In this document: positions 11,028 through 43,661 of the stretch, one piece after another
How the letters are laid out: the number at the start of each line of letters is the position of its first letter
Numbering within the stretch: position 1 is the first letter of the stretch
NCBI GenBank assembly: GCA_945868745.1
Contig: CAMBMK010000001.1
Location: forward strand, 1 to 64,000
Direction of reading: 5' to 3'
DNA: 64,000 nucleotides
Source of the DNA: an uncultured Bacteroidales bacterium
Lineage (GTDB): Bacteria > Bacteroidota > Bacteroidia > Bacteroidales > UBA932
Position numbers and translations under genes: made by a program
Notes under the pieces: model-generated
Seen by the model: the letters and a program-made list of their open reading frames with translations, nothing else
Database searches by the model: none
What the model was told of the DNA's origin: nothing

Positions 11028-11816
11028 ATGCGCATCACCATTATCCAGCCGGACATCGTCTGGGCAGACCCGGCTGCCAACAGAAAGAAGCTCAATGACC
11101 TGATTCTTCCATTGGAAGATACCGGCCTTGTAGTGCTTCCGGAAATGTTTTCCACGGGATTTGTGACGGAACCTGAAGGCACAGCGGAGCAGTCCGGAGA
11201 AAGCCTGCATTGGATGAAGGAGCTTTCAAAAAAAAAGGGATTTGCCATAGCGGGCAGTATTGCTGAAAAATCGGAAGAAAAATATTTCAACCGCTTTCAT
11301 TTTGTAATGCCGGACAGCACGGACACAACCTACGACAAGCACCATCTTTTCACCTACAGCGGAGAGCATCTGAAGTTTACCGGAGGACAGAAAAGGACGG
11401 TGGTGCAGTGGCAGGGCATGCGCTTCCTGCTTCAGATATGCTATGACCTGAGGTTCCCGGTTTTCTCCCGCAACACCATGCATGGCGGCATCCCGGAATA
11501 TGATGCCATAATATATGCAGCAAGCTGGCCTGAAAAACGCTCTGCCGCATGGAAGACCCTGCTGAAAGCAAGGGCCATTGAAAATCAATGCTTTGTAATA
11601 GGAGTCAACCGTGTAGGCAATGATCCGGGCAATGTCTATTCGGGCGATTCGGTCATCCTTGCCCCCGACGGCAGCACCATCGCCTGCGCCGAGCCTTACA
11701 GGGAATCCGTCATAAGCGGCGAACTCGATCCCGAGCTTCTGATGCGGATGAGGGAGGGTTTCCCGGTGCTTGAAGATGCCGACCGTTTCTCTCTGGAGAA
11801 AGGGAATATGCGCTAA
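11028..11816 (+). CDS. Nitrilase-superfamily omega-amidase (YafV-like)
   Basis: VVLPEMFSTGF, K in YDKHHLF, LLQICYDLRFPVF catalytic E-K-C. Confidence 0.87.
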   Translation: MRITIIQPDIVWADPAANRKKLNDLILPLEDTGLVVLPEMFSTGFVTEPEGTAEQSGESLHWMKELSKKKGFAIAGSIAEKSEEKYFNRFHFVMPDSTDTTYDKHHLFTYSGEHLKFTGGQKRTVVQWQGMRFLLQICYDLRFPVFSRNTMHGGIPEYDAIIYAASWPEKRSAAWKTLLKARAIENQCFVIGVNRVGNDPGNVYSGDSVILAPDGSTIACAEPYRESVISGELDPELLMRMREGFPVLEDADRFSLEKGNMR

Positions 11817-11838: not shown

Positions 11839-11869
11839 TTTGGTAGATTGAAATCCTTGTCTATATTTG
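11839..11869 (+). promoter_or_regulatory. Promoter of ilv/leu operon: TTTG-N19-TATATTTG
   Basis: TTTG at 11839-11842 and TATATTTG at 11862-11869 fit the Bacteroidetes sigma-ABfr consensus. Confidence 0.75.
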
Positions 11870-11897
11870 CCACCGGTTTCGAATTGAAAGCATAGTT

Positions 11898-11975
11898 ATG
11901 AATAGTTTGTTCATTATCGTCATTTCCATTAGCGTCCTCATTCTAAGAATGTTCGGACTGGGAAAGCGTGTATGA
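11898..11975 (+). CDS. Branched-chain amino-acid leader peptide MNSLFIIVISISVLILRMFGLGKRV
   Basis: 25 codons, of which 5 Ile, 3 Val, 4 Leu, between a consensus promoter and an intrinsic terminator upstream of ilvD. Confidence 0.85.
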   Translation: MNSLFIIVISISVLILRMFGLGKRV

Positions 11976-11998
11976 GCAGCTACAAGAACGTTAGCGTG

Positions 11999-12041
11999 AT
12001 TGCCTTTCTCAGCCAAAAAGAGAAAGGCAATTCTTGTTTTA
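11999..12041 (+). terminator. Attenuator (intrinsic terminator) of the ilv/leu operon
   Basis: Perfect 12-bp stem ATTGCCTTTCTC (11999-12010) / GAGAAAGGCAAT (12020-12031), 9-nt loop, followed by TCTTGTTTT. Confidence 0.85.
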
Positions 12042-12066
12042 TCTTAACAAATTGTAAGCAACTAAT

Positions 12067-13902
12067 ATGAAACATCAGTTACGCAGTTCAATCACGATGG
12101 AAGGCAGGAGGATGGCCGGTGCCAGGGCCCTGTGGAAAGCGGCGGGAATGACTCCGGAGCAGGCAGGACACCCTGTCATAGCCATAGTCAATTCCTTCAC
12201 GCAGTTTGTCCCGGGACATACTCACCTCCACGAAATCGGCCAGATTGTGAAAGATGAGATTGCTGCGGCAGGCTGCTATGCGGCCGAGTTCAATACAATT
12301 GCCGTGGATGACGGCATCGCCATGGGCCACGACGGGATGCTCTACTCCCTTCCTTCGAGGGACATCATCGCCGACAGCGTTGAATATATGGTCAATGCCC
12401 ACAAGGCCGATGCGATGATCTGCATCAGCAACTGCGACAAGATTACCCCGGGTATGCTTATGGCGGCAATGAGGCTCAATATCCCCGCTGTGTTCGTCTC
12501 CGGAGGCCCGATGGAAGCCGGTGTGCTCGGAAACGCAAGGCTCGACCTCATCGATGCAATGGTGAAGTCCGCCGACAGGACACTCTCCGACAAAGAGGTG
12601 GAAGAAATCGAGATGAATTCGTGCCCGGGATGCGGATGCTGCTCGGGTATGTTCACCGCCAATTCAATGAACTGTCTCACAGAGGCAATAGGTCTTTCGC
12701 TGCCCGGCAACGGCACAATCGTGGCTACCCACAAAAACAGGGTGGAACTGTTCAGGAAGGCCGCGGCCCTCATTGTGGAGAATGCCTGGAAATACTACCG
12801 CGACGGGGACGAAAGCGTACTTCCGCGCAGCATTGCCACCAGGACGGCATTCCTCAATGCGATGACACTCGACATCGCGATGGGAGGCTCGACCAACACG
12901 GTCCTTCACCTTCTCGCCGTGGCACACGAGGCCGGCACCGATTTCACGATGGACGACATCGATGCCCTTTCCAGAAGGGTCCCGTGCATCTGCAAGGTTG
13001 CCCCGAACACTGCAAAATACCATATCCAGGACGTGAACCGTGCAGGAGGGGTGGCCGCCATCATGAAGGAGCTCGCAAAGGGCGGACTTGTGGATACGGC
13101 CGCAAAAAGAGTTGACGGGATGACTCTCGGCGAAGAACTTGAGCGCTATTGCCAGGGAGGAGCCGGTTTCGGCGAAGAAGCCCTCAAAATATACCGCAGC
13201 GCACCTGCAGACAGGTTTTCCACCCGGATGGGCTCCCAGGAGACATATTATGACACCATGGACAATGACCGCGAAGGCGGCTGCATCAGGGATCTTCAGC
13301 ACGCCTACACCAAAGACGGCGGACTCGGCGTCCTCAAAGGCAACATCGCCCTGGACGGATGTGTCATCAAGACAGCCGGAGTGGATGAGTCGATATGGCA
13401 TTTCTCGGGCCCTGCAAAGGTATTCGATTCGCAGGAGGCAGCCTGTGAAGGCATTCTCGGAGGAAAGGTGGTGAGCGGCGATGTGGTCGTGATCACCTTC
13501 GAAGGCCCCAAGGGAGGTCCGGGCATGCAGGAGATGCTCTACCCTACCTCCTACATCAAGTCAATGCATCTCGGAAAGGAATGCGCCCTCATCACCGACG
13601 GAAGGTTCAGCGGAGGCACTTCGGGGCTGAGCATCGGACACATCTCCCCTGAAGCGGCCGCAGGAGGCAACATCGCCCTTGTACGCGACGGGGACATCAT
13701 CGATATCGACATTCCTTCAAGGTCCATCAGCGCAAGGCTCTCCGAAGAGGAACTGCAACGGCGCAGGGAGGAAGAAGAGGCGAAAGGAAAGAAAGCCTTC
13801 AGGCCGCCGCACAGGCACAGGGAGGTCAGCAAGAGCCTCAAGGCATATGCAGCCGCGGTGAGCTCCGCCGACAAGGGAGCGGTAAGGATTGTGGAAGACT
13901 GA
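12067..13902 (+). CDS. ilvD: Dihydroxy-acid dehydratase
   Basis: [63 protein letters not shown]. Confidence 0.97.
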
Positions 13903-13929
13903 CGAATTCTATTCAGACGAACTATACAA

Positions 13930-15660
13930 ATGGAACAGAACAATTTGATAACAGGGGCTGAAGCCCTCCTGAAAGCGCTGGTGGACGAGGGTGTTGACAC
14001 CATCTTCGGCTACCCCGGAGGACAGATAATGCCGGTTTACGACAAGCTGTACTACTATGGGGACCGGCTCCGCCACATTCTTGTCCGCCATGAGCAGGGT
14101 GCCATCCACGCCGCCCAGGGTTATGCCAGGGCAAACGGCAGGACAGGCGTCGTGATGGTGACCTCCGGCCCGGGTGCGACCAATGTGGTGACAGGCATAG
14201 CCGATGCGATGGCGGATTCGACTCCGGTTGTCGTCCTCACGGGGCAGGTCAGCGTGGCCGCCCTGGGGACCGACGCCTTCCAGGAAGCCGATGTCATCGG
14301 AATCACAAGTGCAATCACCAAGTGGAACCACCAGATCAGGCACGCCGACGAGATTGCCGAATCTGTTGCGAAGGCTTTCTACATTGCGGGAAACGGCCGT
14401 CCGGGCCCGGTGCTCCTTGACATCACCAAGGATGCGCAGAACGAGCTCGTGGAATACAGCTACCGCCACTGCACCGGCATCAGGACCTACAACCCCTACC
14501 CCGAGCCGTCCGATGCGGATATCGAACGCGCAGTTGAACTGATCGATTCGGCACAAAGGCCTTTCGTCGTGTTCGGACAGGGCATCACCATCAGCCACGC
14601 CGAAAAGGAACTCGCCGCCTTCCTCACAAAGGGCGACATCCCGGCAGGAGCGACGATGCTCGGCCTCAGCGCCCTTCCTTCGGATTTCCCCCTCTACGAA
14701 GGAATGATCGGGATGCACGGCAACATTGCCCCGAATGTCAAGACAAACGAATGTGACGTGCTCATTGCCGTGGGAATGAGATTCGACGACAGGGTGACCG
14801 GAAAGGTCTCCGAATATGCGCGCCAGGCGAAAATCATCCACATCGACATCGACAAGTGCGAAATCGGGAAGATAATCCAGCCGGAAGTCGGCATCTGCGG
14901 AGATGCACGGGAGGTCCTCACAAGGATCACGGCGAAAATGCGCAAAGCCAGCCACAGGGAATGGATCGGGAGCTTCGATGAATGCAGACAGGCGGAACAG
15001 CAGCTTGTCATTGAGCCGGAGCTCAGGCCGGACGGAGGCCACATAAGGATGGGCGAAGTCGTGGACATGGTCGCAAAAGTGACCGGCAACAAGGCCATTG
15101 TCATCACGGACGTGGGACAGAACCAGCTCATTGCCGCCCGCTACTCACGCTACTCCGGCCAGGGACGCAGCTTCATCACCTCGGGAGGTCTCGGCACAAT
15201 GGGATTCGGCATTCCGGCCGCCATCGGAGCCAAGACAGCCTGCCCGGACCGCCCGGTATGCCTGTTCGTGGGAGACGGCGGCACCCAGATGACAATCCAG
15301 GAGTTCGGCACGGTAATGCAGGAAGGCACCGGAGTCAAGATGGTGATCCTCAACAACAACTGGCTCGGCAACGTCCGCCAGTGGCAGGAGCTGTTCTTCG
15401 GCGGAAGATATTCCCAGACAAGGATGCTCAACCCCGACTACATGGGCATCTGCCGGGCCTACGGCATCGATAGTGCGGTAGTTGAAAAGAGGGAGGACCT
15501 CGAAAACGCCGTCAGGACAATGTTTGAAGACAATGACAGGCCTTACCTCCTTGATGTCCATGTACTTGAAGAAGGCAATGTGATGCCGATGGTCCCTCCG
15601 GGAAAAGGCATCAGCGAGATAATGATTAACGAAAAAGAATGGTACAAGAAAAATGGCTGA
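13930..15660 (+). CDS. ilvB: Acetolactate synthase large subunit
   Basis: FGYPGGQIMPVYDKL, HEQGAIHAAQGYARANGRTGVVMVTSGPGATN, GDGGTQMTIQEF. Confidence 0.97.
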   Translation: MEQNNLITGAEALLKALVDEGVDTIFGYPGGQIMPVYDKLYYYGDRLRHILVRHEQGAIHAAQGYARANGRTGVVMVTSGPGATNVVTGIADAMADSTPVVVLTGQVSVAALGTDAFQEADVIGITSAITKWNHQIRHADEIAESVAKAFYIAGNGRPGPVLLDITKDAQNELVEYSYRHCTGIRTYNPYPEPSDADIERAVELIDSAQRPFVVFGQGITISHAEKELAAFLTKGDIPAGATMLGLSALPSDFPLYEGMIGMHGNIAPNVKTNECDVLIAVGMRFDDRVTGKVSEYARQAKIIHIDIDKCEIGKIIQPEVGICGDAREVLTRITAKMRKASHREWIGSFDECRQAEQQLVIEPELRPDGGHIRMGEVVDMVAKVTGNKAIVITDVGQNQLIAARYSRYSGQGRSFITSGGLGTMGFGIPAAIGAKTACPDRPVCLFVGDGGTQMTIQEFGTVMQEGTGVKMVILNNNWLGNVRQWQELFFGGRYSQTRMLNPDYMGICRAYGIDSAVVEKREDLENAVRTMFEDNDRPYLLDVHVLEEGNVMPMVPPGKGISEIMINEKEWYKKNG

Positions 15661-16165
15661 TTCCATAAAGACATACACCGTAGTGATTTATACGGAGAAT
15701 TCCATCGGACTCCTTTCCCAGATCGCCAATGTTTTCACAAGGCGCAACCTCAACATCCTGAGCCTCAGCGCAGGAGAGTCCGCCGAAGAAGGCAGCTACC
15801 ATATCACGGTGGTGACGGACGGCACTGAAAGGAACGTAAGGGGCGCCGCACTTCTCGTGGAAAAGAGGGTGGATGTCATCCGGGTTGACTACTACACGGA
15901 CAGCGAGATTGTCTATAAGGAACTCGCTATGTACAAGGTTCCCACAAAGAGCCTGCTGGAAAGCGGAAGCATGGAAAAGCTCCTGTCGGGGCACCAGGCG
16001 AAGATTGTGGACATCAACAAGAAATTCACGGTAATACAGAAAACCGGTACTGCCGAAGACACATCGGCGCTTCTGGAAGACCTCAAGGACTACGGAATCT
16101 GTGAATTCATACGCTCGGGCCGCATCGCCGTTTCAAAGCAGTGGAATGCCGAAGAGGCAGAGTAA
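15653..16165 (+). CDS. ilvN: Acetolactate synthase small subunit
   Basis: ACT domain YTENSIGLLSQIANVFTRRNLNILSLSAGES; overlaps ilvB by 8 nt. Confidence 0.93.
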   Translation: MADSIKTYTVVIYTENSIGLLSQIANVFTRRNLNILSLSAGESAEEGSYHITVVTDGTERNVRGAALLVEKRVDVIRVDYYTDSEIVYKELAMYKVPTKSLLESGSMEKLLSGHQAKIVDINKKFTVIQKTGTAEDTSALLEDLKDYGICEFIRSGRIAVSKQWNAEEAE

Positions 16166-16207
16166 AAAAAGATAACAAAGAGTAAAAAATCATAAAAAAT
16201 CAACATT

Positions 16208-17251
16208 ATGGCAACAATCAATTTCGGCGGAGTTGACGAGCATGTGGTCACCCGCGAAGAGTTTACCCTCGAACACGCACGCGAAGTGCTCAAAGACGAA
16301 GTTATCGCAATCATCGGATACGGCATCCAGGGCCCCGGACAGAGCATGAATCTCCGTGACAACGGCTTCAAGGTCATCGTGGGACAGCGCAAGGGCAAAT
16401 CCTATGACAAGGCTGTAGCTGACGGATGGGTGCCGGGAGAGACACTCTTCGAAATTGAAGAGGCCTGCGAGAAGGCTACCGTCATCGAGTTCCTCGTGTC
16501 CGATGCGGCACAGATCGCGCAGTGGCCTGCAGTCAAGAAGCACCTCACCCCGGGCAAGGCCCTCTATTTCTCACACGGATTCGGCATCACCTACTCCGAC
16601 CGCACAGGCATCGTTCCTCCTAAGGATGTGGATGTCATCATGGTAGCTCCGAAGGGCTCCGGCACATCCCTGCGCCGTCTCTTCCTCCAGGGCCGCGGCA
16701 TCAATTCCTCATTTGCAGTATATCAGGATGCAACCGGACGCGCCCTCGAGAGGACTCTCGCCCTCGGCATCGGCGTAGGCTCGGGCTATCTGTTCGAGAC
16801 CGATTTCAAACGCGAGGTCTATTCTGACCTCACCGGCGAGCGCGGTACCCTTATGGGAGCCATCCAGGGCATCCTTCTCGCGCAGTACGAGACCCTCCGC
16901 GAGCACGGACACACCCCGTCCGAGGCCTTCAACGAGACCGTGGAGGAGCTTACCCAGAGCCTTATGCCTCTCTTTGCCGAAAAGGGTATGGACTGGATGT
17001 ACGCCAACTGCTCCACAACTGCCCAGAGAGGCGCCCTCGACTGGATGGGACCTTTCCACGATGCCACAAAACCGGTATTCGAGAAGCTCTACCAGAGCGT
17101 TGCAAGCGGCAACGAGGCACAGATTTCCATCGACTCCAACTCAAAGCCGGACTATCGCGAAGGCCTTGAAAAAGAGCTCAAGGCGCTGCGTGAAAGCGAG
17201 CTTTGGAGAACAGGTGCAGTAGTAAGGCAGCTCCGCCCGGAAAACGACTAG
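16208..17251 (+). CDS. ilvC: Ketol-acid reductoisomerase
   Basis: IGYGIQGPGQSMNLRDNGFKVIVGQRKG; APKGSGTSLRR. Confidence 0.97.
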   Translation: MATINFGGVDEHVVTREEFTLEHAREVLKDEVIAIIGYGIQGPGQSMNLRDNGFKVIVGQRKGKSYDKAVADGWVPGETLFEIEEACEKATVIEFLVSDAAQIAQWPAVKKHLTPGKALYFSHGFGITYSDRTGIVPPKDVDVIMVAPKGSGTSLRRLFLQGRGINSSFAVYQDATGRALERTLALGIGVGSGYLFETDFKREVYSDLTGERGTLMGAIQGILLAQYETLREHGHTPSEAFNETVEELTQSLMPLFAEKGMDWMYANCSTTAQRGALDWMGPFHDATKPVFEKLYQSVASGNEAQISIDSNSKPDYREGLEKELKALRESELWRTGAVVRQLRPEND

Positions 17252-17254
17252 CAA

Positions 17255-18754
17255 ATGGACAGAAACAGAGTATATATCTTTGACACTACCCTGAGGGACG
17301 GTGAACAGGTGCCGGGATGCCAGCTCAACACCGTTGAGAAAATCCAGGTTGCCAAGGCGCTGGAAGCCCTCGGGGTGGATGTGATTGAAGCGGGATTCCC
17401 GGTTTCGAGCCCCGGCGACTTCAACTCCGTGCGTGAAATCTCCAAGGCTGTCACCTGGCCGACAATATGTGCCCTGACAAGGGCCGTCGAAAAGGATATC
17501 GATGTGGCCGCGGATGCTCTCAAGTATGCAAAGCACGGCCGTATCCACACCGGCATCGGCACGTCCGACTACCATATCCGCTACAAGTTCAACTCCACAA
17601 GGGAGGAGATCCTCGAGCGTGCGGTGAAGGCCGTGAAATACGCCAGGAAGTATGTCGATGACGTGGAGTTCTACGCGGAGGATGCCGGAAGGACCGACAA
17701 CGAGTATCTCGCAAGGGTGGTGGAAGCCGTCATCAAGGCCGGAGCCACGGTGGTGAATATCCCCGACACCACAGGCTACTGCCTTCCGGAGGAATTCGGA
17801 GCCAAGATCAAATACCTCATGGAGCATGTGGACGGCATCGACAACGCCATCATTTCCACTCACTGCCACAATGACCTCGGAATGGCGACAGCCAACACGA
17901 TGGCGGGCCTTCTGAACGGTGCGAGACAGGCTGAGGTGACAATCAACGGCGTGGGTGAAAGGGCCGGCAACACCTCCCTCGAAGAGGTCGCGATGATATT
18001 GAAATCACACAACGAGATTCCGCTCAAGACCAACATCAACACCACCAGGATCTATCCTACGAGCAGGATGGTGTCCAACCTGATGAACATGCCGGTGCAG
18101 CCCAACAAGGCAATTGTCGGCAAAAACGCATTCGCACACTCTTCAGGCATCCATCAGGACGGAGTGCTGAAAAACGCGCAGACCTACGAAATCATCGACC
18201 CGAAGGACATCGGTCTTGACGAGAACTCCATCGTGCTCACGGCCCGCAGCGGACATGCGGCCCTCAAATACAGGCTCGAAGTGCTCGGAGTCAAGCTTTC
18301 CGACGAAAAGCTTGACAAGGTATACCAGGATTTCCTCAGGCTCGCCGACAAGAAAAAGGAAATCAGCGACGAGGACATACTCATGCTCGCCGGAGCCGAC
18401 AGGACACACGACCACCACGTCAAGGTGGACTGGCTGCAGGCCACAAGCGGCATCGGGATGAAGCCGGTCGCAAGCATCGGACTTGACATAAGCGGCGAGA
18501 AATTCGAGGCGGCGGCTACCGGAAACGGCCCTGTGGACGCGGCAATCAAGGCTGTCAGACAGATCATCAAGCGCCCTGTCACCCTCACGGAATTTACCAT
18601 CCAGGGTGTAAGCAAGGGTTCTGACGACACCTGCAAGGTCCATGTACAGGTGGAATCCGAGGGAAGGTCCTACTACGGATTCGGCATCAACACCGATATT
18701 GTCACAGCCTCTATCGAGTCATATCTCGATGCCATCAACAAAATTAGGAACTGA
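17255..18754 (+). CDS. leuA: 2-isopropylmalate synthase
   Basis: [66 protein letters not shown]. Confidence 0.95.
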
Positions 18755-18764
18755 CTGATACAAA

Positions 18765-20135
18765 ATGAATACGCTATTTGACAAAATATGGGACAGCCAC
18801 GTCGTCAACCGGATTGAGGACGGACCGGTCCAGCTCTATATCGACAGGCTCTATTGCCACGAGGTCACAAGCCCGCAGGCCTTTGACGGACTGCGCGAAA
18901 GGGGCATAAAATGTCTGCGCCCGGAGAAAATCTTCTGTATGCCGGACCACAACACACCTACCCACGACCAGGACAAGCCGATTGAGGACCCGGTGGGCAG
19001 GAAACAGGTGGATGCACTCACACGCAACACCGCCGAATTCGGGCTCACCCATTTCCCGATGATGGACCGCCGCAACGGAATCATCCACGTGGTAGGTCCA
19101 GAGAGAGGGCTTTCCCTCCCGGGAATGACAATTGTCTGCGGGGACTCCCACACTTCCACCCACGGGGCCGTCGGTGCGGTTGCATTCGGCATCGGCACAA
19201 GCGAGGTGGAGATGGTGATGGCATCGCAGTGTATCCTCCAGCAGAAGCCGAAGTCGATGAGAATCAGCATTGAAGGCAAGCTTGGGAAAGGAGTGACCGC
19301 AAAGGATGTCGCCCTCTACATCATGAAGATGATCACCACCTCCGGAGGCACCGGCTATTTCATCGAATATGCCGGCCAGGTCATCAGGGACATGTCAATG
19401 GAGGGAAGGATGACCCTTTGCAACCTTTCCATCGAAATGGGTGCCCGCGGAGGATTCATAGCTCCGGACGAGACCACCTTCAACTATCTCAAGGGACGCG
19501 AATATGCCCCGAAGGGAGAGGAATGGGACAGGGCCGTGGAGTATTGGAAAACCCTGCGCAGCGGTGACGATGCCGTGTTTGACCGCGAAATCACCTACCG
19601 GGGCGAAGACATCGAGCCTATGATAACCTACGGCACCAACCCCGGAATGGGCATGGCCATAACCGGAAGCATTCCTGAAGGATGCCCGCAGAAAGCCCTT
19701 GACTATATGGGATTTGAAGAGGGGCAAAAACTCCTCGGACACAAGGTTGACTATGTATTTCTCGGAGCCTGCACCAACGGCAGGATCGAGGATTTCCGCG
19801 CATTCGCATCCATTGCCCGCGGCCGCCACAAGGCAGAAAATGTCACTGCCTGGCTTGTTCCGGGGTCATGGATGGTAAAGCAGCAGATTGAAGATGAGGG
19901 CCTTGACAAAGTCCTTGCGGAAGCCGGCTTTGAAATCCGCCAGCCGGGATGCTCCGCCTGCCTTGCGATGAACGATGACAAGATTCCTGCAGGAAAATAC
20001 AGCGTATCGACCAGCAACCGCAATTTTGAGGGCCGCCAGGGACCGGGCTCAAGGACCATGCTCGCATCTCCGCTCACAGCGGCGGCGGCAGCCGTGACAG
20101 GCGTGGTTACAGACCCGAGAACATTAATGGACTGA
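18765..20135 (+). CDS. leuC: 3-isopropylmalate dehydratase large subunit
   Basis: [56 protein letters not shown]. Confidence 0.97.
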
Positions 20136-20140
20136 ATGTT

Positions 20141-20737
20141 ATGAAACAGAAATTCGACATAATTGAGAGCAGCTGCATTCCTCTTCCGCTTGAGAATGTG
20201 GACACTGACCAGATAATACCGGCGCGTTTCCTGAAGGCCACGACAAAAGACGAGAAGTTCTTCGGGGACAATCTGTTCTGCGACTGGAGATACAATCCGG
20301 ACGGGAGCCCGAAGGATTTTGTGATGAACGACCCTTCCTACAGCGGATGCATCCTTGTGGCAGGCAGGAATTTCGGCAGCGGTTCCAGCCGCGAGCACGC
20401 AGCCTGGGCGATTGCCGGAGCGGGATTCAAAGTGGTGATTTCCAGCTTCTTCGCCGATATCCACAAAAACAATGAGCTCAACAATTTCGTGCTTCCCGTG
20501 ACCGTTTCGGAAGGTTTTCTCGCAGAGTTGTTTGCATCAATCGACGCCGACCACGGCACAAGGGTGCGCGTGGACGTGCCCAACCAGACCGTGACCAACC
20601 TCGCCACCGGTTCTTCGGAGCATTTCGAGCTCAATGCATACAAAAAATACTGTCTGATGAATGCACTCGACGACATTGACTACCTTCTCGGGACAAAAGA
20701 CAGGATTGAGGAGTACGAGAACAGCCGCAGGATATGA
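20141..20737 (+). CDS. leuD: 3-isopropylmalate dehydratase small subunit
   Basis: NVDTDQIIPARFLK; AGRNFGSGSSREHAAWAI. Confidence 0.96.
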   Translation: MKQKFDIIESSCIPLPLENVDTDQIIPARFLKATTKDEKFFGDNLFCDWRYNPDGSPKDFVMNDPSYSGCILVAGRNFGSGSSREHAAWAIAGAGFKVVISSFFADIHKNNELNNFVLPVTVSEGFLAELFASIDADHGTRVRVDVPNQTVTNLATGSSEHFELNAYKKYCLMNALDDIDYLLGTKDRIEEYENSRRI

Positions 20738-22272
20738 TAGAAATACTTGACACAACGCTCAGGGACGGCGAGCAGACCGCAGGAGTCTCGTTCAATGCAG
20801 GCGAAAAGCTTGCCATTGCACGGCTGCTTCTCGAGGAGCTCAAGGTTGACCGCATCGAGGTGTGCTCCGCAAGGGTATCGGAGGGTGAGCGCACCGCCCT
20901 GTCAAGAATCTGTGCCTGGGCCTCCGCGTGCGGCCATCTGGACAGGGTGGAGGCACTCGGTTTCGTGGATGACGGCAGGTCCGTGGACTGGATTGCAGGC
21001 TGCGGCGGCACTGTGCTGAACCTCCTCACGAAGGGTTCCCTCAAGCATGTGACAGGCCAGCTGCGCAAGACTCCGCAGGAGCACCTGGACGACATCAGGC
21101 GCAATATCGACATCGCCGTCAGAAAAGGGATGGGCGTCAATGTCTATCTTGAGGACTGGTCCAACGGGATGCTCAACTCGGAAGACTATGTGTATTTTCT
21201 GATGGACGGACTCAAGGACACTCCCGTCAGAAGATACATGCTTCCCGACACCCTCGGGGTGCTGAGCCCGGACGAGACCTTCGCCCTGATCAGCAAGATG
21301 ACGTCGCGCTACCCTGACCGGCATTTCGACTTTCACGCCCACAACGACTATGACCTCGCCACTGCCAATACCCTCGCGGCACTGAAAGCCGGTGTGCAGG
21401 GCGTGCACGCAACGGTGAACGGACTGGGAGAAAGGGCCGGCAACGTCTCTATGGCCGGGGTAATCGGTGTTCTCAACGACCATCTCCATCTGCCTAACCC
21501 GCTGGACGAGAGCAAGCTCATCCACGTCTGCAAATATGTGGAAAGCATCTCAGGCGTGCGCATTGCCCCCAATTCCCCTATCGTCGGGGACTCGGTATTC
21601 ACCCAGACCAGCGGTGTCCACGCCGACGGCGACCGCAAGGGCGACCTCTACCAGAATGCCCTGCTCCCGGAGAGATTCGGCCGCAGACGCACATATGCGC
21701 TCGGCAAGACAAGCGGCAAGGCCAACATAATGAAAAACCTCGAAAGCCTCGGCATCAGCCTCACCACCGAGCAGATGAAGAAGGTCACGAGCCGTGTCGT
21801 GGAACTCGGCGACAAGAAGGAGACCATGACCACTGAGGACCTTCCGTTCATCGTGGCAGACGTGCTCAGGGGTGACGACAGTGCCGTAGAGGAGAATATC
21901 CGCATTGTCAACTACAGCCTTATGCTTGCGCGCGGAATGCATCCTGTGGCAAGCCTGCGCATCGAAATCCACGGCGACGAGTACGAGGACACCGAACGCG
22001 GAGACGGACAGTACGATGCGTTCATGAAGGCCCTGTGGAAGATCTACGACAAGCTCGGCAAGGCCCACCCGAAGCTGACCGACTATTCGGTGAGCATCCC
22101 TCCGGGAGGAAAGACCGACGCACTTGTGGAGACCACCATCGAATGGGATTTCGGGGGACACAGCTTCAAGACCCGCGGAGTCGATTCGGACCAGACGGAA
22201 GCCGCCATCAAGGCCACCTTCAAAATGCTCAACATCATTGAAAATTCTGAAATCAAAACTTACACGGTATGA
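20734..22272 (+). CDS. Second isopropylmalate/citramalate synthase-family enzyme (candidate citramalate synthase)
   Basis: [75 protein letters not shown]; regulatory C-terminal domain; ATGA overlaps on both sides. Confidence 0.85.
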
Positions 22273-23342
22273 ACTTTAAAATAGCAAAGCTTCCCGGCGA
22301 CGGCATCGGCCCGGAAGTGGTAAGCCAGGCCGTCAAGGCCGTTGACGCCGTCTGCCGCAGGTTCGGACACACTGCCGAGTACACCTTCGGATATGTCGGA
22401 GCCTGTGCAATCGACAGATATGGAGATGCCTACCCGGAAGAAACACACAATATCTGCATGGATTCGGATGCCGTCCTTTTCGGAGCCGTCGGCGACCCGA
22501 AATACGACAATGACCCTACCGCAAAGGTACGCCCGGAGCAGGGGCTCCTCGCAATCCGCAAAAAACTCGGACTGTATGCCAACCTGCGCCCTGTAGAGAC
22601 ATTCCGCTCGCTCATAGACCGTTCCCCGCTCAGGACAGAACTCGTTGACGGAGCCGACTTCATGTGCATCAGGGAACTCACCGGAGGCATGTACTTCGGC
22701 AAAAAGGGCCGCGAAGATGGCGGCAACACTGCCTACGACACCTGCATCTACAGCCGTCCCGAGGTGGAACGCATCCTCAAGCTTGCCTTCGAATATGCAA
22801 TGAGAAGACGCAAGCACCTCACCGTAGTGGACAAGGCCAACGTCCTCGAGTCCTCACGGCTCTGGCGCCAGATTGCCCAGGAGATGGAGCCGCAGTACCC
22901 GGAAGTAACTGTGGACTACCTCTTTGTGGACAATGCTGCAATGCAGCTCATACGCTGTCCGAAGGTATTTGACGTCATCGTCACCGAAAACACCTTCGGG
23001 GACATCCTCACCGACGAGGCCAGCTGCATTACCGGCAGTATGGGACTTCTTGCCTCCGCTTCCGTAGGCGAGCACACCTCCCTCTTCGAGCCTATCCACG
23101 GCTCATACCCACAGGCCGCAGGCAAGAACATCGCCAACCCTCTGGCCACCATCCTTTCAGCCGCAATGATGTTTGAATATGCATTCGGGCTTATGGAGGA
23201 AGGCAAGGCCATCAGGGAGGCCGTATCTGCGTCCATCGACGCGGGCATAGTGACCGAGGACCTCGCCGCTCCGTCGCAGAAAGCCTGCAGCACCTCAGAA
23301 GTCGGAGACTGGGTGGCAGAATACATTGACAAAGCCAAATAG
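22269..23342 (+). CDS. leuB: 3-isopropylmalate dehydrogenase
   Basis: [59 protein letters not shown]. Confidence 0.96.
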
Positions 23343-23389
23343 CCAACTCAAGGACAGCATTTGCAAAACAGCATCTTAATCAGTTTATT

Positions 23390-24427
23390 ATGAGCAACAT
23401 AAATTGGGACACAATAGGCTTTGACGCCTACAGGACACGCACCGTCATCCTGTCCCGTTTCCAGGACGGAAAATGGTCTCCGGCAGAGAAGACCGAAAAT
23501 TTCTCCTTCACTCTCGACCCGTTCGCACAGGTGCTCCACTATGCAGTAGCCTGCTTCGAAGGCCTCAAGGCTTTCACCCAAAAAGACGGGAAGATTGTGA
23601 TATTCCGTCCGGACGAAAATGCCGCCAGAATGAGGCGTACCGCCGATTATCTCGGCATGCCGGCTCCTGATGAAGACCTTTTCATCTCAATGTGCGAGGA
23701 GTGTGTAAAGAACAATCTCGAATTCATGCCTCCATACGGACACGGAGCTTCGATGTACCTGCGTCCGATCCTGATGGGTGTCCATCCGCAGATGCAGCTC
23801 ACACCTAATCCGGATGCCCTCTTCGCCGTCATCTGCGCCCCTGCCGGAGCATATTACGGCTCCAACATGAGGTCTTTCAGCGCAGTCATCCCGGGAGACT
23901 ACGACAGGGCCGCCCCTAAAGGCTCCGGAAGCTACAAGCTGGGTGCCAACTATGCAGCCACCTTCAAGCCATACAAGATAGCCCACGACCAGGGATACCA
24001 GGAGCTCCTGTTCCTCAACTCTGCCACCAGGGAATATGTCGATGAGTACGGCTCATCCAACTTCTTCGGCATCAAGGGCAACACCTATGTAACCCCGCTT
24101 TCCGACAGTGTCCTTCCGTCAATCACCAACAAGTCTCTCCAGCAGGTCGCAAAAGACCTCGGAATGGAGGTTGAGAAGAGAAAGATTCCTGTAGAAGAGC
24201 TCGCCGAATTCGACGAGGCGGCAGCCTGCGGCACAGCCGTTGTCATCACCCCTATGTACAGGATCGACATCAAGCCGGTGCTCGGCGGTGAGGAGATTGA
24301 AAGGTCATTCACCTACGGAGAGCCGGAGAAGGTGGGACCTGTCTGCACAAAGCTCTACAAGACACTGACAGGCATCCAGAACGGAGAGCTTCCCGACACC
24401 CACGGCTGGTGCCATGAGGTAAGATGA
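23390..24427 (+). CDS. ilvE: Branched-chain amino acid aminotransferase
   Basis: LHYAVACFEGLKAF; GANYAATFKPYKIAHDQGYQELLFL; DEYGSSNFF. Confidence 0.96.
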   Translation: MSNINWDTIGFDAYRTRTVILSRFQDGKWSPAEKTENFSFTLDPFAQVLHYAVACFEGLKAFTQKDGKIVIFRPDENAARMRRTADYLGMPAPDEDLFISMCEECVKNNLEFMPPYGHGASMYLRPILMGVHPQMQLTPNPDALFAVICAPAGAYYGSNMRSFSAVIPGDYDRAAPKGSGSYKLGANYAATFKPYKIAHDQGYQELLFLNSATREYVDEYGSSNFFGIKGNTYVTPLSDSVLPSITNKSLQQVAKDLGMEVEKRKIPVEELAEFDEAAACGTAVVITPMYRIDIKPVLGGEEIERSFTYGEPEKVGPVCTKLYKTLTGIQNGELPDTHGWCHEVR

Positions 24428-41189: not shown

Positions 41190-43646
41190 TTACATGAGTA
41201 TGTCATTGAGCACACCGCTTGCCGTCTGGTATGCCCCGGCTCCGGCTCCCTGCACCACAAGAGGAGAAGGGTAGAAGGAGGAGGTGATGATGGCGGCATT
41301 GTCGGTCCCGCAGAGATTGTAGAGCGGATGCTCAGGGCCTACGGCCTTGAGCGCCATGGATGCGACATAGCCTTCCGGAGTCTTTTCGAGGGTCGCTATG
41401 AATCTCTGTCTCAAGCCTTTGTCGGCCGCCTCCCTGTAGGAGGACGCAAACTGTTCTTCGCTGCTGTCGAGCTTCGAGAAGAACTCCGGCACCTTTCCGG
41501 TGAAGAAGTCCGGCCCGAGGACAGGGGTTATGCGCACATCGGCCTCATCAAGCGGCACTCCGGCCTCGCGGCTGAGAATCAGGAGCTTGCGCAGCACGTC
41601 ACGGCCGCTCAGGTCAAGACGCGGGTCAGGCTCGGAATATCCGGCCTTCTGGGCATAGCGCACCACATCGGCAAATGTCTTTCCGTCGGTGCCTCCCGCG
41701 TATGTACTGAAGATGTAGTTCATTGTGCCGGAGAGCACGGCCTCTATTTTCAGGATTTCGTCGCCGGAGTTGACGCTGCGCGAGATGGATTCGAGAATCG
41801 GGAGTGCGGCGCCGACCGTTGTCTCGTATTTGAGGGATACACGGTTGTCAACGGCAGCCTTCTTGAGCATCTCGTACTGTCTGTAAGGTGCTGCAAAGGT
41901 GATTTTGTTGCTTGCGACAACCGAATAGCCTCTCTCGAAGAGGTTGAGGTATTTGTATGAAATGTCGGAGCTTGCCGTGCAGTCCACAAAGACGGAGTTC
42001 TGAAGCGAAATCTTGGCGAGCTCCTCAAAGAATGCTTCGTCGGCTGCGGATTTGCCCTTTGCAAGCTGGCCCTCAATGTCCTGCAGGCTGAGGCCTTCCT
42101 TGTCGATGACATACTTCCTGCTGTTGGAAATGCCGGCAAGGTGGAGGCGTTTTCCGGTACGCTCGGCAATGGATTCGCGGTTTTTGGCGAGGATGTCGAG
42201 AAATGCTTTGCCCACGGTGCCGTATCCGGCAACGAAGAGGTTGATGTCCTTGTACTTGGATGTCTCGAAAAACTCCTTGTGGATATATCTGATTGCCGCG
42301 TGGGCATCTTCGGAGGCCACGATGACGGATATGTTCCTCTCGGAGGAGCCCTGTGCGACAGCGCGTACGGCAATGCTGCGGCGTCCGAGTGCGGCCATCA
42401 TGCGTCCTGTGGTCCCCCTCTGGCCGAAGATGTCGTCACCGACAAGGCAGACGATGGAGTAGCCGGTCTCGACCTTCAGCGGGTTGAGCTTGCCGAGGGA
42501 GATTTCATATGCGAAACATCTGTCTGCGGCTTCCCTGGCCTTCTCGGCGTCCTTTTCGGACACGGCTACACACATCGTATTGACCGATGAGGCCTGTGTG
42601 ATGAGGATGATGCTGATGTCATTCTCGCTGAGCGTGCGGAAAAGGCGGTAGGAGAATCCGGGCACGCCGACCATCCCGCTTCCCTCGAGGGAGAGGAGGG
42701 CAATGTTGTCGGAGTTGGAGATGCCGATGATGTTGCCGCGGCTTCTCGGAGGGTTCTGTTCTATGATGGTGCCTTCCCCGTCAGGGTTGAAGGTGCATTT
42801 TACATAAATCGGGATTCTTTCGGCCACGACAGGCTGGATGGTAGGCGGATAGATCACCTTTGCCCCGAAGTGGGAAAGCTCGAGCGCGGCACGGTAGGAG
42901 ATATGCTTGATGAGGGTGGATGACGGCACTATTTTCGGGTCGGCGGTCATCATGCCCGGGACGTCCTTCCATGTCTCGAGGGCCCTGGACTTGCTTCCGA
43001 CGGCAAAGAGGGATGCGGTGTAGTCCGAGCCTCCGCGTCCGAGGGTGACCATACGCCCCTTTTCGTCGGCGGCAATGAATCCCGGCACCACGAAGAGGGA
43101 TGTGATAGGGTTGGTCTCTATCATGTTCTGGACTGCCGCATACGTCTTCTGGAAATCGACTGTCTCCTTTCCCGCCTCGCTGTGGACACGGATAATCTCC
43201 CTTGAATCAATCCATTTGGTGGCGATTCCGCGGCTGGCGAGCTTGGTGGCAAGGATCCGGCTGGAGATGAGCTCCCCGCAACCCTGGATGGCATCGAGGC
43301 TGGTCGGGCTGAGCTCTCCGAGAAGATAGACTCCGTGGGAAATGCTCAGGAGCGAATCGAAGATTTCGTCGCACATCTCGGTCACCTCCTCGTGCTTTTC
43401 AACCGGAAGAAGTTCGCGGATGATCTCGTGGTGACGGGCCTGGAAGGAGTCGAGGATTTCCTTGTAGGTCTCGTTACGGTCTGCCGCAAGATGGCCTACC
43501 CTGATCAGCGCATCGGTAAACCCGCTGACCGCAGACACGACGACAATCGTCCTGTCGCGCGATACGGCCCCGGCGATGATTTCCGCACATTGGGACATAC
43601 TTTCGGCACTCGCTACAGACGTGCCTCCGAATTTAAGTACCTGCAT
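41190..43646 (-). CDS. thrA: Bifunctional aspartokinase / homoserine dehydrogenase
   Basis: 818 aa; MQVLKFGGTSVASAESM aspartokinase; LFVAGYGTVGKAFLDIL and GTMNYIFSTYAGG homoserine dehydrogenase. Confidence 0.96.
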   Translation of the reverse strand: MQVLKFGGTSVASAESMSQCAEIIAGAVSRDRTIVVVSAVSGFTDALIRVGHLAADRNETYKEILDSFQARHHEIIRELLPVEKHEEVTEMCDEIFDSLLSISHGVYLLGELSPTSLDAIQGCGELISSRILATKLASRGIATKWIDSREIIRVHSEAGKETVDFQKTYAAVQNMIETNPITSLFVVPGFIAADEKGRMVTLGRGGSDYTASLFAVGSKSRALETWKDVPGMMTADPKIVPSSTLIKHISYRAALELSHFGAKVIYPPTIQPVVAERIPIYVKCTFNPDGEGTIIEQNPPRSRGNIIGISNSDNIALLSLEGSGMVGVPGFSYRLFRTLSENDISIILITQASSVNTMCVAVSEKDAEKAREAADRCFAYEISLGKLNPLKVETGYSIVCLVGDDIFGQRGTTGRMMAALGRRSIAVRAVAQGSSERNISVIVASEDAHAAIRYIHKEFFETSKYKDINLFVAGYGTVGKAFLDILAKNRESIAERTGKRLHLAGISNSRKYVIDKEGLSLQDIEGQLAKGKSAADEAFFEELAKISLQNSVFVDCTASSDISYKYLNLFERGYSVVASNKITFAAPYRQYEMLKKAAVDNRVSLKYETTVGAALPILESISRSVNSGDEILKIEAVLSGTMNYIFSTYAGGTDGKTFADVVRYAQKAGYSEPDPRLDLSGRDVLRKLLILSREAGVPLDEADVRITPVLGPDFFTGKVPEFFSKLDSSEEQFASSYREAADKGLRQRFIATLEKTPEGYVASMALKAVGPEHPLYNLCGTDNAAIITSSFYPSPLVVQGAGAGAYQTASGVLNDILM

Positions 43647-43661
43647 ATTGTGTAAGTTCGT

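Follow-up and report, generated by a model that had tools for sequence, protein, structure and literature searches.

A putative leader-peptide attenuator of the branched-chain amino acid operon in Bacteroidales whose codons track the downstream genes

Introduction

Transcription attenuation is best documented in enterobacteria, and its leader-peptide type is well established for proteobacterial ilv operons. In E. coli and Salmonella, the ilvL leader encodes a peptide rich in Ile, Val and Leu, carries competing anti-terminator and terminator structures, and senses all three amino acids. Vitreschak and colleagues reportedly predicted attenuators in the Bacteroidetes/Chlorobi in FEMS Microbiol Lett in 2004. 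Attenuation of both ilv and leu is listed in PMC1183508, a passage of which describes rare CUA control codons in the Salmonella leu leader whose replacement by CUG reduced sensitivity (Carter et al. 1986). For the phylum Bacteroidota, passages in two articles suggest leader-peptide attenuation of amino acid operons in Flavobacterium psychrophilum (PMC9723704) and attenuation by leader-like sORFs in leaders of B. thetaiotaomicron (PMC7366714). These cases share phylum and proposed mechanism with the locus described here, and the passages concerned name no branched-chain operon, covariation or codon analysis. The Bacteroid-trp RNA (RF01692), listed in PMC2864571, is a Bacteroidetes RNA motif with trp in its name; it does not match our locus. 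In the open-access papers searched we found no account of a Bacteroidales branched-chain attenuator, of covariation in its anti-terminator or of codon re-tuning.

Here we describe a locus in a 64,000-nucleotide stretch of DNA (the window) from an uncultured Bacteroidales bacterium that is almost certainly a ribosome-mediated transcription attenuator of a complete branched-chain amino acid operon. Like the enterobacterial ilvGMEDA operon with its ilvL leader, it has an Ile/Val/Leu-rich leader peptide and a competing anti-terminator and terminator, and it would sense three amino acids. Unlike that system, it has a Bacteroidota promoter, it precedes a single operon that holds ilv, leu, cimA-like and ilvE genes, and its anti-terminator strand may overlap the end of the leader ORF; the likeness is one of design rather than of compared sequences. 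The kind of mechanism, classic ribosome-mediated attenuation, is already known.

Results

Directly downstream of the leader region lie ten genes for Ile, Val and Leu synthesis (12067–24427, on the forward strand like all features below unless noted), identified from ORFs and NCBIfam models, whose shared strand and spacing suggest a single operon. NCBIfam assigned ilvD (start at 12067), ilvB (13930), ilvH (15653), ilvC (16208), leuA (17255), leuC (18765), leuD (20141) and a cimA-like gene (20734), while leuB (22269) and ilvE (23390–24427) were named from sequence. The cimA-like gene is a second LeuA-like gene (20734–22272) that resembles CimA, the citramalate synthase of Leptospira, while scoring under the cut-off of the CimA model, and suggests that Ile may be made via the citramalate route. 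A nitrilase-family amidase gene (11028–11816) lies just 5′ of the attenuator, a neighbourhood that is also conserved in many genomes of the same genus.

The original prediction described a promoter of the form TTTG-N19-TATATTTG and a 25-codon leader ORF with 5 Ile, 3 Val and 4 Leu codons, and direct reading bore out both. The Bacteroidota-type promoter (11839–11869) comprises a -33 TTTG at 11839–11842, a 19-nt spacer and the -7 element TATATTTG at 11862–11869, and transcription would start near 11875. Of 50 leaders, 37 have a perfect TAnnTTTG box 5′ of their ATG, compared with 6.9% of shuffles, and in most leaders with this box TTTG stands 19–20 nt ahead of it. Nearly all leaders have a Bacteroidota promoter close before their ATG. 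Between promoter and leader ATG (11870–11897 in the window) we observed a block of approximately CGGTTACAAATTGAAAGCA, conserved in many leaders of the genus, that is possibly a translation-initiation or early-transcribed element. The un-annotated leader peptide ORF, recognized from sequence and conservation, runs from the ATG at 11898 to the TGA at 11973–11975 and encodes MNSLFIIVISISVLILRMFGLGKRV, with 12 of its 25 codons specifying Ile, Val or Leu. Its codon-density profile places a control-codon cluster at I6–L16 (11913–11945; 5 Ile, 2 Val and 2 Leu), and the last control codon begins 12 nt 5′ of the anti-terminator strand.

A perfect 12-bp hairpin followed by a T-rich tail had been proposed 5′ of ilvD (ATG at 12067), and this was confirmed. 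The stem is formed by ATTGCCTTTCTC (11999–12010) and GAGAAAGGCAAT (12020–12031) around a loop of 9 nt, extends to 13 bp if a G-U pair at 11998/12032 is counted, and folds at -18 kcal/mol (z = -4.9). From this fold, strand 4 (12020–12032) and the T-rich tail TCTTGTTTTAT make up a predicted intrinsic terminator (12020–12042). The T tract is imperfect, and this terminator, with its loop of 9 and interrupted T run, went unreported in a strict consensus terminator scan. Strand 3 (11998–12012), delimited by fold, relatives and covariation, contains both the terminator 5′ arm (11998–12010) and the partner of anti-terminator strand 2 (12004–12012). Strand 2 is GGACUGGGAAAG at 11955–11966. An anti-terminator pairing of GGGAAAG (11960–11966) with CTTTCTC (12004–12010) had been put forward; the positions hold and this pairing covaries, but it is longer, with CUGGGAAAG (11958–11966) and CUUUCUCAG (12004–12012) forming 9 bp that include one G-U. 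Folding also yields a candidate protector strand 1 (11922–11937), consisting of AUUUCC at 11922–11927 and GUCC at 11934–11937, which could pair with strand 2 if no ribosome covers strand 1 and would thereby allow termination in an untranslated leader. This 1:2 pairing is weakly supported, forming in the fold with a mean z of -0.8 relative to shuffled strand 1. Rfam covariance models gave no match at the locus to an attenuator, T-box or riboswitch family.

In folds of the full-length RNA with a stalled ribosome, the terminator is still favored (-25 to -34 versus -22 to -24 kcal/mol). With strand 4 not yet transcribed, the strand 2–3 pairing is the predicted fold at all modeled stall positions. 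Given that the terminator is thermodynamically favored on the full-length RNA despite a stall, the model needs kinetic, co-transcriptional folding.

A chance origin of the leader ORF and terminator is excluded. Of the window's 641 short ATG ORFs, the leader ORF is the densest in Ile, Leu and Val codons, and it is the sole dense one with a terminator after it. When intergenic regions were shuffled, 0.5% gave an ORF of comparable density and 0.4% a comparable hairpin with a T-rich tail; the combination of dense ORF and terminator appeared in none of 20,000 shuffles of the intergenic region. An aspartokinase/homoserine dehydrogenase gene elsewhere in the window (41190–43661, reverse strand) has no leader upstream. 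In a search for other attenuators in the same genome (G000), which is 83% complete, hisG and trpE were not found although the full branched-chain pathway is present, making His and Trp auxotrophy possible.

The original prediction called for conservation of the Ile/Val/Leu ORF and terminator in relatives, and this was found. To collect IlvD relatives we drew on named genomes and on 101 genomes of the genus, scoring as leader an Ile/Leu/Val-rich ORF that starts with ATG or GTG and lies upstream of ilvD; in most cases a hairpin and T-rich tail accompany it. Such an ORF, mostly with a terminator, precedes ilvD at 33 of 58 Bacteroidota loci (29 initially, plus L013, L026 and L028, and L023 with a GTG start) and at none of 22 loci from other phyla. 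Terminator stems in most relatives resemble that of the window. Leader-bearing loci include ones labelled Bacteroides, Phocaeicola, Alistipes, Odoribacter, Labilibaculum and Paludibacter; examples are MINLHTSNLLAVLHIIRVVVMESRA (L008, labelled Candidatus Bacteroides merdipullorum) and MNSCLYIIINLILVVLRR (L058, labelled Alistipes). At the remaining 25 Bacteroidota loci, many labelled Prevotella or Prevotellaceae, a leader was not found at ilvD, some of these contigs being short or the operon being headed elsewhere. Within the genus, 21 of 30 loci carry a leader at ilvD and a 22nd carries one at leuA. A subgroup of the genus (L092, L094–L100) has no leader at ilvD, having lost the attenuator there or never had one. 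Six leaderless loci of the genus were checked over the fetched stretch: one has a leader and terminator before leuA, and at the other five, where ilvD is present, no branched-chain gene in that stretch has a leader combined with a terminator. The leaderless ilvD adjoins a divergent aspartokinase-like gene across a short upstream region in four of the five subgroup loci read at length.

The strand 2–3 pairing first proposed is also the one that covaries, both under permutation of species and in double changes within the genus. Cognate strand 2–strand 3 duplexes have a mean energy of -19.1 kcal/mol versus -14.3 kcal/mol for mismatched species pairs, an advantage that lies beyond all 2000 permutations in a test that related sequences inflate. 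Inside the genus, 14 double-change cells occur in strand 2–3 pairs versus at most 13 in any of 5000 shuffles, a comparison that relatedness likewise inflates. These permutation tests overstate significance since the relatives are not independent; even so, compensatory flips at several pairs are visible by eye, for example T-A replaced by C-G in L088, L103 and L104, and two A-T pairs flipped to T-A in L108.

We also examined where the control codons stand relative to strand 2. The Ile/Leu/Val codon fraction is 0.85–1.0 at 12–29 nt before strand 2 and then 0.26 at 9–11 nt. With a codon in its A site, a ribosome covers ∼12 nt counted from the first base of that codon, so a density edge at 12 nt is where it should lie if a stalled ribosome has to keep clear of strand 2. 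In this spacing analysis the control codons are placed such that strand 2 would stay free on a stall and be covered on termination. The stop codon, by comparison, wanders by 40 nt within the genus: at one extreme it lies 31 nt past the start of strand 2, at the other 9 nt ahead of it. The distance between the last control codons and strand 2 is what stays constant. Having the end of the leader ORF itself act as the anti-terminator strand, as in the original prediction, is not essential, the stop position being variable within the genus.

The amino acid content of the leaders is selective. Ile, Leu and Val make up 0.95 of Ile/Leu/Val plus Phe and Met in leaders versus 0.77 in the operon proteins (p ∼1e-13); these three alone are enriched, and Phe, Met and Ala are not. 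Phe and Met codons also have T at the second position, and their depletion relative to Ile, Leu and Val indicates that the peptide was not selected for hydrophobicity alone. Leaders also use the codons ATT, CTT and CTA far more often than the genes do.

A clade of the same genus whose leuA shares at least 89% identity with the leuA of G052 (loci L119, L121 and L152–L176) provides a natural experiment. Here the leu genes stand under their own attenuator and ilvD often stands under another. The leuA leaders (n = 22) contain 117 Leu, 10 Ile and 8 Val codons (87% Leu among the three), and CTA accounts for 61 of the 117 Leu codons (∼52%) versus 3 of 1271 (0.2%) in the leuA, leuC, leuB and ilvD genes. 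This is contrasted by ilvD leaders from split arrangements (n = 9), with 24 Leu, 66 Ile and 58 Val (84% Ile plus Val). In L121 and L153, close relatives in which fusion may be a single event, ilvD follows leuB at a distance of 14–21 nt and lacks a separate attenuator. The leuA leaders of these two genomes, MRNIINISILSLLRNFGS and MHNIIVISILSLLRNFIS, have gained Ile, with 4 and 6 Ile plus Val compared with 0–3 in the 22 Leu-only leaders. Window-type leaders (n = 20), ahead of ilvD with the leu genes behind it, contain 100 Leu, 64 Ile and 75 Val. Downstream genes were read in the split and fused genomes and in the window, and at other loci of the genus to the end of the fetched flank. Collectively, the counts from split, fused and window-type operons indicate that leader codons track the downstream genes.

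Discussion

The original prediction of a ribosome-mediated attenuator upstream of the ilv/leu operon is supported by conservation, covariation, codon spacing and the way in which leader codons match the genes behind them. In the mechanism we propose, RNA polymerase would start just past the promoter (11839–11869) and a ribosome would translate the leader ORF. Should Ile-, Val- or Leu-tRNA run short, the ribosome would stall at codons 6–16 with its leading edge ending just short of strand 2 (11955–11966), leaving that strand to pair with strand 3 (12004–12012) before strand 4 is made. As this pairing comes ahead of strand 4, the terminator would not form and ilvD–ilvE would be transcribed. With charged tRNAs abundant, the ribosome would get to the stop codon and cover strand 2, strand 3 would pair with strand 4, and transcription would be expected to stop near 12040, giving a predicted RNA of ∼165 nt. 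Translation of the leader, termination in vivo and a response to starvation are what these parts predict.

Could the ORF instead encode a product with a function of its own, a small hydrophobic membrane protein or a toxin-like peptide, with the hairpin as its own terminator? The peptide is indeed hydrophobic and has its own promoter upstream, but its length, C-terminus and stop position vary freely, its enrichment is limited to Ile, Leu and Val to the exclusion of Phe, Met and Ala, its content turns to Leu before leuA and to Ile/Val before ilvD, and the anti-terminator covaries; we consider this explanation extremely improbable. We give scarcely any credence to a leader that binds a ligand or protein (a riboswitch, a T-box or a target of a regulatory protein), in which the sensor governs the terminator and the ORF is incidental. 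A terminator and anti-terminator by themselves would suit any such sensor; however, no Rfam family matches, the leaders are short and variable outside strands 2–4, and what is conserved is the Ile/Leu/Val codons and their 12-nt spacing.

It is also very unlikely that the leader ORF controls translation of ilvD in the manner of a uORF rather than transcription termination. The leader does lie close ahead of ilvD in many relatives, but a strong stem, a T-rich tail and a covarying anti-terminator are what a transcription attenuator needs.

Beyond this one locus, we think it probable that control of branched-chain amino acid synthesis by leader-peptide attenuation is both ancestral and general in Bacteroidales, with codons re-tuned where the ilv and leu genes split or fuse. 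Within that reading, an undivided operon would have one mixed Ile/Val/Leu leader. A split would go with a CTA-rich Leu leader plus an Ile/Val leader, and with ilvD fused behind leuB the Leu leader would acquire Ile codons. The sister-clade leuA leaders share their use of CTA with the Salmonella leu leader, from a different phylum, apparently by convergence.

Taken together, attenuation emerges on strong comparative evidence as the means by which many Bacteroidales control a central pathway, through leader ORFs short enough to escape gene finders. The split and fused operons tie codon identity to regulatory scope and predict the amino acid to which each operon answers, and the spacing to the anti-terminator offers a ready basis for reporter design in Bacteroides.
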